From Bacteroidales bacterium (GTDB lineage: Bacteria; Bacteroidota; Bacteroidia; Bacteroidales; UBA932), in assembly GCA_017519865.1 (NCBI GenBank), contig JAFWRQ010000011.1:1-36173 (forward strand): a DNA stretch of 36,173 nucleotides. Direction: 5' to 3'. Shown here piece by piece: positions 24,080 to 26,639 of the stretch (position 1 is its first letter; each line of letters starts with the position of its first letter). The translations under genes and the position numbers were made by a program. The notes beneath the pieces were generated by a model. It was given only the letters and a program-made list of their open reading frames with translations, did not search any database and had not been told where the DNA came from.

Positions 24080-24832
24080 ATGCCTGAACGCAAGGGGGTA
24101 TACTTTGTCTCCGACGTCCATCTCGGTCTCGCCGTGAAGGATCCTGAAGGGCGCGAGGCGCGCTTCGTATCCTTCCTGCGCTCCATTCCTGCCGATACTA
24201 CTCTCGCCCTGTATATGCTTGGCGACATCTGGGATTTCTGGTACGAGTACCGCGACGTTGTTCCGAAGGGTTATGTCAGGGTTTTCTCCGCCCTCATGGA
24301 CCTTATGGACGCGGGCGTGAAGGTGTATTTCTTCCCGGGCAACCACGACATCTGGTGCTACGGCTATTTCGAGTCCATGGGCATCACCGTCGTGCGGGAG
24401 CAGCCGCAGTTGGTCGAGATGGGGGGCAAGGTGTTCTGCCTGGGACACGGCGACGGCCTGGGTCCCGGCCTCCGGGGCTACAGGTTCATGAATTCCATCT
24501 TCAAGTGCCGGGTGATCCAGAGGCTCTTCAGCACGCTGCATCCCTGGCTTGCGTTCCGCATGGGCCTGGGATGGTCGCGTCACAGCCGTCTGGCCCGGAA
24601 CGAAACCTACGTGTTCAAAGGAGAGTCCGAGCCGTTGTACAAGTGGGCGGAGGACTTCTCTTCACGCACCCACGTCGACTGCTTCATCTTCGGGCACCTG
24701 CACTGTGAGGCTGACCTGACGCTGCCGACCGGGGCGCGCCTGATAGTGATGAAAGACTGGATGGACGGAGGTCAGTACTGGTATTTCGACGGGATCTTGG
24801 TCGGTGTCGGCCATTCCATGAACACCGAGTAG
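24080..24832 (+). CDS. lpxH: UDP-2,3-diacylglucosamine diphosphatase (LpxH-like)
   Basis: A 250-residue metallophosphoesterase. Metal-binding motifs are SDVHLG (from S11), GDIWDFW, GNHD, GHGDG and GHLH, all in the order expected for LpxH, with a basic helical insertion (about 140-190) for the lipid substrate. LpxH hydrolyses UDP-diacylglucosamine to lipid X in lipid A synthesis at the inner membrane. A more general calcineurin-type phosphatase cannot be excluded without comparison. Its last 61 nt overlap the end of the opposing DUF4294 gene. Confidence 0.85.
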   Translation: MPERKGVYFVSDVHLGLAVKDPEGREARFVSFLRSIPADTTLALYMLGDIWDFWYEYRDVVPKGYVRVFSALMDLMDAGVKVYFFPGNHDIWCYGYFESMGITVVREQPQLVEMGGKVFCLGHGDGLGPGLRGYRFMNSIFKCRVIQRLFSTLHPWLAFRMGLGWSRHSRLARNETYVFKGESEPLYKWAEDFSSRTHVDCFIFGHLHCEADLTLPTGARLIVMKDWMDGGQYWYFDGILVGVGHSMNTE

Positions 24833-25458
24833 TACAGGCGGTCGAACTCTCCCGCCTCCCATGCCTTGACGAGTTCTTCCGTCTGCGCGTCCTGCCCCTT
24901 CGGGTCATACGCGCTTTTGAGGTTCTGTCCGAACAGGCGGGCGACGCCCTGCCAGAAAACGGCGGAAACCGAACTCCTGTAGTCCTTTACGATCTTGTAG
25001 GAAGTCCGCGACGTCTCGCGGTCGACCAGGCGCATCAGCAGCTGGCCCTGCGAAACGCTCATCTTGCGTATGATGGGCTCGAAGTCCTTGAGGATCTGCT
25101 TCTGCCACTCGCTGGTGTAGCGGTTCTCTTCGGCACGCTTGAAGTTGTTGGCTTCCATGGTGCTGTCTACGTGGTTGAGAACTTTGCTCACCATAAGGGC
25201 GTAGGGGTAGACCTTGTTGAAATTGTAGACGAGCTTGTAGTAGTTGCGCCAGTCCTTGCGGTCGCGGCGCGTGCCTTTGGGGAAGCACCATACGGGAGGC
25301 AGTTCGTCGTAGAAGATGGTGTCACCCTGATCCACGTAGTAGGCCATGTAGACGCCTTTCTGGCCGGCGTTCTGGGCGGCGGAATACGGACTCCGGAGGC
25401 TTGCCGCCACGAGGACGGAAGCCACTGTGAGGAACAATATTGCGCCGCTTCTTTTCAT
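24772..25458 (-). CDS. DUF4294 family exported protein
   Basis: A 228-residue protein from ATG 25458. The N-terminal 30 residues are hydrophobic and look like a signal peptide or anchor. The central block (GDTIFYDELPPVWCFP, then NYYKLVYNFNKVYPYA) matches the DUF4294 pattern, as does the helical stretch FKRAEENRYTSEWQK. The function is unknown; it is presumably periplasmic. TTG 25467 is the only earlier start, but it lies inside the -7 box. Its last 20 codons overlap lpxH on the other strand, and both reading frames are intact. Confidence 0.8.
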   Translation of the reverse strand: MKRSGAILFLTVASVLVAASLRSPYSAAQNAGQKGVYMAYYVDQGDTIFYDELPPVWCFPKGTRRDRKDWRNYYKLVYNFNKVYPYALMVSKVLNHVDSTMEANNFKRAEENRYTSEWQKQILKDFEPIIRKMSVSQGQLLMRLVDRETSRTSYKIVKDYRSSVSAVFWQGVARLFGQNLKSAYDPKGQDAQTEELVKAWEAGEFDRLYYSVFMEWPTPTKIPSKYQY

Positions 25459-25464
25459 AGTCTG

Positions 25465-25472
25465 CAAATATA
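25465..25472 (-). promoter_or_regulatory. -7 box for DUF4294, nearly abutting the start codon
   Basis: The minus strand reads TATATTTG (exact TAnnTTTG), with a TTTG 17 bp upstream as -33. Only 6 nt (CAGACT) separate it from ATG 25458, so the transcript should have almost no leader. Confidence 0.55.
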
Positions 25473-25511
25473 CGGACTTTTTTCTTCTTCAAATATCCGG
25501 CCATACACTTT

Positions 25512-25757
25512 CTCCTCCCCGTCGATGGCAGGCAGACCGCTGTCTCCGCGGAAAATGCTCCGACAACGGTCAGCCTGTCCATCTCCGTGGAAAATGCTCC
25601 TCCCTTCGATGGCAGACAGACCGCCGGCTCCGCGGAAAATGCTCCACCGACGGTCAGTCTGACCATCTCCGTGGAAAATGCTCCTCCCTTCGATGGCAGA
25701 CTGACCGCCGGCTCCGCGGAAAATGCTCCACCGACGGTCAGTCTGACCATCTCCGGG
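25512..25757. repeat. 84-bp tandem repeat of alternating inverted arms and a 17-nt box
   Basis: Three units begin at 25512 (85 bp), 25597 (84 bp) and 25681 (incomplete). A box TCCGYGGAAAATGCTCC occurs five times (25545, 25584, 25629, 25668, 25713), spaced alternately 39 and 45 bp. Between boxes lie a left arm (GATGGCAGACTGACCG in unit 3) and a right arm (CGGTCAGTCTGACCATC) that are reverse complements apart from one bulged base. Each unit can therefore fold as a 16-bp hairpin with a box in its 27-nt loop and another box between hairpins. Arms are at 25524-25539/25567-25583, 25608-25623/25651-25667 and 25692-25707/25735-25751. Unit 1 has a G-C pair where the others have A-T. Confidence 0.9.
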
Positions 25758-25908
25758 AGGGCCTTTTTCGGCCTGTCGAAAATCGCGGAAAAAAGTTTTT
25801 AACAGGGTTCGTTAAGTCGCTGAAAAAACGGAGGTTAAGTATTTGCTTTCCGTGTCGAAAATATGTGAAAAAATATCTTAAAATTATTTCAAATTCAAAA
25901 ATTATTAC

Positions 25909-25916
25909 TATCTTTG
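25909..25916 (+). promoter_or_regulatory. -7 box for the rplP-rplQ ribosomal operon
   Basis: TATCTTTG is an exact TAnnTTTG match in a strongly AT-rich region, with TTTC 18 bp upstream. It ends 87 nt before rplP, leaving a leader of about 80 nt. In that leader TCCC/GGGA and GAGAA/TTCTC can pair around a purine-rich stretch. Confidence 0.65.
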
Positions 25917-26003
25917 CAGTCCCAAAATTGAGGAGAAGTTCGCCCAACCAGCTGATTCTCAGGGATTTAGGGAAGTTTGAAATTATTTTAAAGTTATACA
26001 GCA

Positions 26004-26423
26004 ATGTTACAACCTAAAAGAACAAAATTCAGAAGGGAACAGAAAGGACGCATGAAGGGTAACGCCCAGCGTGGCAACCAGCTTGCATTCGGCTCCTTCG
26101 GTCTTAAGACTCTCGAGAATTGCTGGCTTACCGCCCAGCAGATTGAGGCCGCCCGTCAGGCTATCTCGCGCTACATGAACCGCGAGGGACAGATCTGGAT
26201 CAGGGTTTTCCCTGTCAAGCCTGTCACCAAGAAGCCCCTCTCCACCCGTATGGGTAAGGGTAAGGGTGATCCTTACGGATTCGTCGCTCCGATCACTCCC
26301 GGCCGCATCATCTTCGAGGCTGAGGGTGTCTCCCTTCCGGTCGCCAAGGAGGCAATGCGCCTCGCGGCTAACAAGCTCCCCGTTGCTACGAAGTTCATCG
26401 TTCGCAGGGATTATGTTGAATAA
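26004..26423 (+). CDS. rplP: 50S ribosomal protein L16
   Basis: A 139-residue protein of the large subunit near the A site and central protuberance. The N-terminal [11 protein letters not shown], the [12 protein letters not shown] block and the [11 protein letters not shown] motif are standard for L16. It is the first gene after a long gene-free region with its own promoter. In most bacteria rpsC immediately precedes it, but here it does not. The leader before ATG 26004 lacks a Shine-Dalgarno sequence. Confidence 0.97.
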
Positions 26424-26441
26424 TATTAATGGAGAAAGAAA

Positions 26442-26639
26442 ATGAAAGTTTCAGAAGTACGCGAAATGTCCGTAGCGGATCTGCGCGACCGCATCGAGGT
26501 TGAGAAAGCCAATCTTGATACCATGAAGATCAATCACGCTATCTCTCCATTAGAGGATACGTCCAGGTTCAAGAAGACCCGGCAGGATATTGCCCGCATG
26601 ATCACTATCCTGGCTGAAAAAGAAAAATCACTGAATTAA
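26442..26639 (+). CDS. rpmC: 50S ribosomal protein L29
   Basis: A 65-residue, two-helix protein at the exit of the peptide tunnel, where chaperones and the secretion machinery dock. The helical pattern and the block [17 protein letters not shown] in the second half are family-typical. It lies 18 nt after rplP and 11 nt before rpsQ, in canonical order. Confidence 0.93.

Follow-up and report, generated by a model that had tools for sequence, protein, structure and literature searches.

Between a DUF4294 gene and rplP, which point away from each other, a Bacteroidales genome carries a short tract of tandem hairpins whose arms change in pairs, and the question it raises is whether these paired changes mark a functional folded RNA or arose in some other way. 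The window (the whole 36,173-nucleotide stretch of DNA that was analysed) is contig C5 of a 2.1-Mb genome (37 contigs, 75% complete). A preliminary description, made from the letters of the window, had offered an extragenic palindromic element, a structured RNA or a protein-binding array as possible identities. We consider it probable (at about 0.65) that the array is a local, three-unit, head-to-tail amplification of a dispersed mobile palindromic repeat, in which template switching keeps the two arms complementary.

Layout of the array

The features of the array and its neighbours are collected in Table 1. Tandem Repeats Finder and the unit spacing agree with the three tandem copies described earlier, and a box search placed all five boxes where they had been reported, spaced 39, 45, 39 and 45 bp, all copies of TCCGYGGAAAATGCTCC. 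The inverted arms with one bulged base per right arm were seen again, both on reading the sequence and in folds, and unit 1 does differ from units 2-3 by a change from G-C to A-T that affects the two arms together. Two details had to be corrected: the units had been given as 84/85 bp long, and they start 84 and 84 bp apart with 0% indels (39 + 45 gives 84 twice), and the array had been said to break any reading frame, which it keeps because 84 is a multiple of 3.

Table 1. Position of the tandem array, its component parts and the two adjacent genes within the window.
Feature	Coordinates	Strand	Basis
Tandem array, three 84-bp units	25512..25755	+	Tandem Repeats Finder: period 84, 93% matches, 0% indels; spacing 84/84
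Unit 1 left arm	25524..25544	+	Sequence, folds
Box 1, loop of unit 1, TCCGCGGAAAATGCTCC	25545..25561	+	Box search
Unit 1 right arm, one bulged base	25562..25583	+	Sequence; fold of 25522-25584
Box 2, linker, TCCGTGGAAAATGCTCC	25584..25600	+	Box search; flanked by right arm 1 and left arm 2, themselves complementary
Unit 2 left arm	25608..25628	+	Sequence
Box 3, loop of unit 2	25629..25645	+	Box search
Unit 2 right arm	25646..25667	+	Sequence
Box 4, linker	25668..25684	+	Box search
Unit 3 left arm	25692..25712	+	Sequence; inverted pair I2
Box 5, loop of unit 3	25713..25729	+	Box search
Unit 3 right arm	25730..25751	+	Sequence; inverted pair I2
DUF4294 gene, left neighbour, points away from rplP	24772..25467	-	Pfam PF14127, E 7.3e-47
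rplP (ribosomal protein L16), right neighbour	26004..26423	+	Pfam PF00252, E 1.5e-51

The linker boxes are flanked by complementary arms too (arm scores of 10 and 14), and unit 2 carries a one-sided change, having CAGACAGACC where unit 3 has CAGACTGACC, with an identical right arm in both. RNA folds of the array on both strands were better than all of 200 shuffles (z of -8.3 and -12.2, the minus strand being the stronger), and a single unit folded as single-stranded DNA was likewise far better than shuffles.

Positions 25468-26003 of the window form a 536-bp gap which stands, together with the divergent gene, upstream of rplP where rpsC would stand. On reading, the sequence upstream of rplP was also varied in relatives, and L208 (genome G022) has several other inverted repeats with CGTGAAATTCACCT, 400-600 bases upstream of rplP and near the place of the array.

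Further copies in the same genome

The box, allowing at most one mismatch, had 13 matches in the genome (5 in the array and 8 elsewhere), compared to 0 for the box read backwards. Each of the 8 dispersed boxes is the loop of a single hairpin, giving a total of 11 hairpins at 9 sites, and the arm scores of the dispersed copies are 11-21, when only 10 of 2000 random positions reach at least 10. A covariance model of the 11 hairpins, in a genome scan that scored 150 of 2274 first-look candidates, gave 15 matches at E<=1, these being the 11 hairpins and reverse-strand readings of four of them. By reading, the single copies lie in gaps, several of them right behind stop codons.

The arms of these 11 copies share the sequence AGGC..TGCCA. 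Double changes occur in 16 of 20 stem pairs (57 cells) and 89.1% of the 220 cells are paired; unpaired arm changes, which had been named as evidence against a kept structure, do occur (24 of the 220 cells), yet they are outnumbered. The covariation of the 11 copies was 0.667, compared to a shuffle mean of 0.240 and to 0.045-0.148 for slid versions, while their number of pair types was not above that of shuffles (185 of 500 shuffles reach the value).

Two further observations were made in this genome (G000). L194 (1501-1598, contig C19) is a longer palindrome, similar to the class with a 38-nt loop described below and with GC-rich arms of its own, and may be a twelfth member. One hairpin copy, at L015 and L018 (the end of contig C28 and the start of C20), is part of a longer segment that is repeated close to these contig ends; genome G109 has a very similar one.

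A family in the genus

Relatives of the array were sought in 400 sampled genomes of the genus, which is probably GTDB Cryptobacteroides (one genome per species, many of them fragmented). The model of the 11 hairpins matched 10 of the 400, own genome included, at E<=1e-4. A second model, built on 17 hairpins whose arms were mixed, matched 39, own genome included, at E<=0.01 per genome, where about 4 would match by chance, 15 candidates were scored per genome and the model E-values are rough. The idea of a dispersed palindromic element is thus upheld by more copies in the same genome (the 8 single hairpins found with box and arms) and by relatives in the genus, which also rule out a single-locus curiosity. 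The carriers G353, G250, G398 and G109 come from rumen-type samples, water buffalo and sheep among them.

Among 99 elements examined, the loops are mostly 17, 26 or 38 nt long, with lengths of 16, 19, 25 and 50 nt also found (entries of 28, 32, 44 and 47 nt were sub-matches and were dropped), and the arms around the core are about 16-25 nt. Counts were restricted to elements with complementary arms (score of at least 11), and as hits were chosen by model score and paired arms, uniform loops and good stems are over-represented. The 38-nt loop reads TCCGCG-TCGCTTCGCGA-CCCTGTACGGG-CAAATGCTCC and contains two small internal hairpins, one of them with a paired change. Tandem pairs were also found elsewhere, at L040, L060 and L088, with spacings of 78, 72 and 90. 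On reading, many arms resemble small palindromes themselves.

Outside the own genome the box alone is a weak marker, being present at 11 places in 200 genus genomes compared to 9 for the reversed box (own counts excluded); 6 of these 11 have arm scores of at least 10 and the other 5 score 4-6, with no arms beyond chance. An origin from viruses was rejected, as the two viral contigs with the 17-mer lack arms (scores of 5 and 4, within the null). Among 14 further contig loci, ten were dismissed with arm scores of 4-8, the chance range, and L061, L063 and L073 duplicate sequences that were scored under other loci; L065 shares its right arm with L061 but not its left arm, and has an arm score of 8.

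A search of 61 relatives (R1) matched the own genome and, weakly, one genus genome (L037), with no match in 24 other genomes of the order. A search of 314 genomes of the order (R3) matched the own genome only, at L194; it missed the 11 own copies with 17-nt loops and is blind to that class, and the genomes listed for it include one other of the genus, so these searches say little about the range outside the genus. No description of the family was found in the accessible parts of the open-access literature, to which the search was confined, as distinct from subscription papers and preprints.

Copies within genes and at shared sites

Outside the window's genome most elements appear to lie in frame within genes, as opposed to the own copies in gaps. 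The preliminary description had held that translation of the tract would speak against its reading: the tract in the window is in a noncoding gap, and its relatives in other species appear to be coding. One frame of the element reads as SAENAP or SASLRDPVRANAP and the opposite strand as GAFARTG.RS.AE, in host proteins which, from their peptides, we take to be AtpB-, MurE-, HisH-, biotin-carrier- and TrmH-like, among others. The longest frame has at least 200 codons or is open at both ends in 10 of 12 other elements with 17/19-nt loops, 20 of 24 with 25/26-nt loops and 47 of 52 with 38-nt loops. Open frames alone are no proof of coding, since 6 of the 11 own gap copies also have frames of at least 200 codons. 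The bias of frame, in which the longest open frame of 49 of the 52 elements with 38-nt loops falls in three of six frames and the own copies spread over five, appears to speak more for coding than open frames do. The family is found in both orientations.

Several sites can be compared between species. The insertion in murE of G163 (L095) and G164 is absent in G019, and two of four readable relatives seem to hold other palindromes at this place; by reading, the palindrome of the G164 copy extends over four host bases (GATG) common to G163. At the atpB site (L104-L133, of which 24 of the 30 fetched loci were readable) a 38-nt element is present in one orientation in five loci and in the other in one, three loci have degenerate or 26-nt elements, and the remainder have unrelated palindromes, with nothing obvious in L125. 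The N-terminus of atpB before GEIIFEH seems to be a hotspot for unrelated in-frame palindromes, such as VIPSEAEES, VMPG.DRAS and EENYFSQSFAKNQFSS.

Over the rplP region the closest of 150 sampled genomes is G105 (88%). Where the window has its array, G105 has a family member that faces the other way, its loop being 50 nt long and its arms different. No family hairpin was found at four corresponding sites of G105 (the C28 contig-end site aligns poorly). At the C33 site G214 carries a family hairpin, which shows a paired change. In 28 further relatives with the rplP region no family hairpin was found at the array site, some having other inverted repeats nearby. One site can also have different loop classes in different species, namely 26 and 38 nt (L246, L261 and L271) or 17 and 38 nt (L044 and L102), and classes are mixed at atpB as well, which implies that replacement of the element at a site does happen. 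L254/L262 is another site with different loop classes between species. In the murE and G105 comparisons, where border alignments were poor, no target duplication of the kind a MITE would leave was recognised, and no fresh insertion with clean borders and no clean empty site was seen among these genomes, one per species.

Uniform cores and variable arms

The 11 copies in genome G019 have cores that are 99.5% identical, arms that are 57.5% identical and a within-copy complementarity of 98.9%, although 7 of these copies came from a BLAST search with a copy from G163, which biases them toward identical cores. With BLAST-found copies excluded, 38-nt elements at different sites of the same species differ by 0.70 of 38 core positions and 5.53 of 16 left-arm positions (57 pairs), compared to 1.50 and 3.90 at the same site in different species (10 pairs, atpB excluded) and 0.40 and 2.70 for the atpB pairs. 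Similarity of the core is thus higher among copies of one species, and similarity of the arm among copies at one site.

At ten orthologous 38-nt sites there were 15 core differences compared to 59.7 expected at the rate of the flanks. Over 13 orthologous sites, 47 stem positions had changes on the two sides together and 14 on a single side, when 14 double changes would be expected if the sides were independent; changes were tallied regardless of the resulting pairing, orthology was judged from flank similarity, and the count excludes same-genome pairs, atpB pairs (which are not independent), mixed loop classes and L247/L251, where the element does not adjoin the matching flanks. The flank comparison took in 99 elements, in the orientation of the element, and the inverted pairs come from a separate comparison. 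Between L100 and L277 (G207 and G312, host gene 89% identical) the whole 38-nt loop is inverted and the arms are kept, and two more 38-nt sites (L094/L259 and L281/L289) have opposite orientations, while ten non-atpB sites have the same orientation.

Across 12 elements of the 38-nt class pairing is seen in 98.7% of cells, with 45 double-change cells, one one-sided cell (G-U) and four unpaired cells (A.C). Covariation of the stem is present both here and in the 11 own copies. Mispairs read on the box strand are A.C in 45 cases and G.T in 20, in a count that took only the 97 elements with 12 or more of their 16 positions paired, a choice which raises their pairing of 93.8%; 94 of 100 elements with an arm score of at least 11 have at least 12 of 16 pairs.

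Origin of the paired changes

The family is multi-copy, is present or absent between related species, occurs in both orientations and combines a uniform core with site-specific, self-pairing arms. We propose that the core would spread from site to site by transposition or conversion, through some enzyme, and that template switching during replication, in which the growing strand would copy the opposite arm, may rewrite both arms consistently. Such switching could also draw adjacent host bases into the palindrome and could invert the loop. The double changes, the loop inversion and the host bases in the G164 murE arm are all explained by template switching, and the inversion of the loop between kept arms raised our estimate for a mobile palindrome from 0.60 to 0.65. 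Template switching is described as homogenising the arms of inverted repeats and inverting their spacers (PMC8604942), and as creating and maintaining hairpins (PMC8794818). On this view the genome would mainly tolerate the element as a parasite, and a copy within a gene would survive only if it leaves the frame open.

Some of the data sit less easily with a mobile palindrome rewritten in this way. The uniformity of the core within a species goes beyond template switching and needs mobility, conversion or selection, and the greater conservation of the core than of its flanks might mean a selected function. The arms of the 11 own copies share sequence, so arms also travel or descend together, and double changes at one site could stem from loss and independent re-insertion.

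The paired changes had been taken to point to a folded structure being kept; the folded form is indeed kept and paired changes are frequent, and it is the functional folded molecule that is less supported. The covariation is genuine but is weak evidence for a functional RNA, because DNA copying explains the double changes, the different yet complementary arms and the loop inversion without any RNA function. A structured RNA (such as a terminator, a stabiliser or a protein-binding hairpin in an untranslated region), with a recognised loop and a stem selected via compensatory changes, is unlikely. It would fit a conserved loop on a covarying stem, a loop that changes slower than its flanks, and own single copies in gaps and behind stop codons, and the excess of A.C would be tolerable as U.G wobble on the other strand, where the fold is stronger. 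Copies elsewhere, however, are apparently mostly in coding genes and in both orientations, 28 relatives are without a family hairpin at the array site, and at certain sites the loop has inverted in situ. Furthermore, double changes exceed single ones at orthologous sites, when slow drift would leave one-sided intermediates, few of which were seen (one G-U and four A.C compared to 45 double). No Rfam family was matched above its gathering score, the lone match in window positions 24500-26600 having 20.3 bits compared to the 90 needed.

We think it quite improbable that the conserved 17-38 nt core alone is mobile, its arms being made anew at each insertion by inverted duplication of target DNA, which, if true, would make it a mobile element whose ends always derive from the host. 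Cores that are alike and arms that differ within one genome suit this proposal, as do arms closer at the same site across species than between sites (3.90 compared to 5.53 of 16), but the arms of the 11 own copies are recognisably related. The right arm at the G105 array site resembles the sequence to the right of the window's array, its left arm runs for 6-9 bases into an inverted version of TGTCGAAAA, a conserved host sequence, and four host bases lie within the G164 murE arm; such copied host bases are, however, few, those of G105 are T-rich with two mismatches in nine and may be chance, and they could have been added afterwards by extension. None of the sites compared was a clean empty site.

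Exchange of cores, swapped or inserted within pre-existing inverted repeats as with IS1272, is very unlikely. It would account for the different loop classes at one site between species (L246/L261/L271, L044/L102 and atpB), except that the arms differ too at these mixed-class sites and that, as a weaker point, no bare matching palindromes were found at element-free sites, only four murE relatives being readable and other palindromes being present near rplP in some relatives. Lastly, it is extremely improbable that the array offers binding sites through which a DNA-binding protein controls the DUF4294 gene or rplP, as its position between divergent genes and its five regularly spaced copies of one 17-mer might suggest, given that 0 of 28 relatives with the rplP region have a family hairpin there and that the other copies in the genome are at unrelated places.

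Comparison with known systems

Rickettsia palindromic elements (RPE) are short dispersed palindromes found in gaps and inside genes. CGTC-tagged palindromic families are described as having no dedicated transposase, with stems of 8-9 bp and loops of 4-5 nt (PMC3733652). Compared by description, both resemble the present family in being short palindromes dispersed over gaps and genes, and the family shares with RPE that copies lie in frame in genes of unrelated kinds; as far as these descriptions go it differs in its stems of 16-25 bp, its long conserved core, its copy-specific arms and its phylum.

The REP/REPIN-RAYT system shares with the family two inverted arms around a spacer, dispersal, and Y1-transposase genes in the genus. 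In REPINs the arms are the conserved part, whereas here it is the spacer, and the element is absent at the 31 Y1 loci scanned. Y1 genes are present in 21 of 22 carrier genomes examined (carriers only). No element was found within 1.5 kb on each side of 30 of the 75 Y1 matches, a word scan giving two incidental 9-mers, and the own Y1 locus gave 0 matches allowing 3 mismatches. A RAYT-driven REP was rejected, as no flanking copies were found at the 31 loci, and no mobilising gene was found in these scans. Subclass 2.6 of the Bacteroidetes Y1 proteins is described as having atypical flanking structures, with copies elsewhere (PMC6006769). At L023 (2500-4500 of contig C9 of G000), copies of another palindrome, ATCCTTCGGGAAATGCCCGAAGGAT, lie just downstream of a Y1-transposase gene (PF01797), and this palindrome is also inside the reading frame of the gene preceding it.

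Template switching, or quasipalindrome correction, is reported to homogenise arms, to make multi-base paired changes, to invert spacers and to create stems (PMC8794818, PMC8604942, PMC7202029). Here too arms change together and the spacer can invert, although template switching is a mutation process and not an element family, and leaves the dispersal and the uniform core unexplained. IS1272 is described as replacing inverted-repeat targets (PMC5678879) and is similar, so far as that description extends, in being a mobile sequence at such targets, but it has a transposase gene where here there is a core of 17-38 nt. A survey of bacterial stem-loop repeats is reported to have covered 92 families across 40 genomes (PMC2267715); by that description these families, as dispersed repeats with a common stem-loop, can be likened to the present one. 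In Nematomorpha mitochondria perfect inverted repeats are reported to be kept within translated genes (PMC6649704), which is similar to the palindromes inside genes seen here, while the summary of that work mentions neither a conserved core nor dispersal.

Significance of the family

Covariation in a stem is usually taken as proof of a functional RNA, and here copying of DNA fits as well or better, in a covarying family which spans coding genes and gaps alike. The family offers many replicate sites for measuring template switching in bacteria, and it is a case of palindromes entering housekeeping proteins (AtpB, MurE and others, judged by their peptides).
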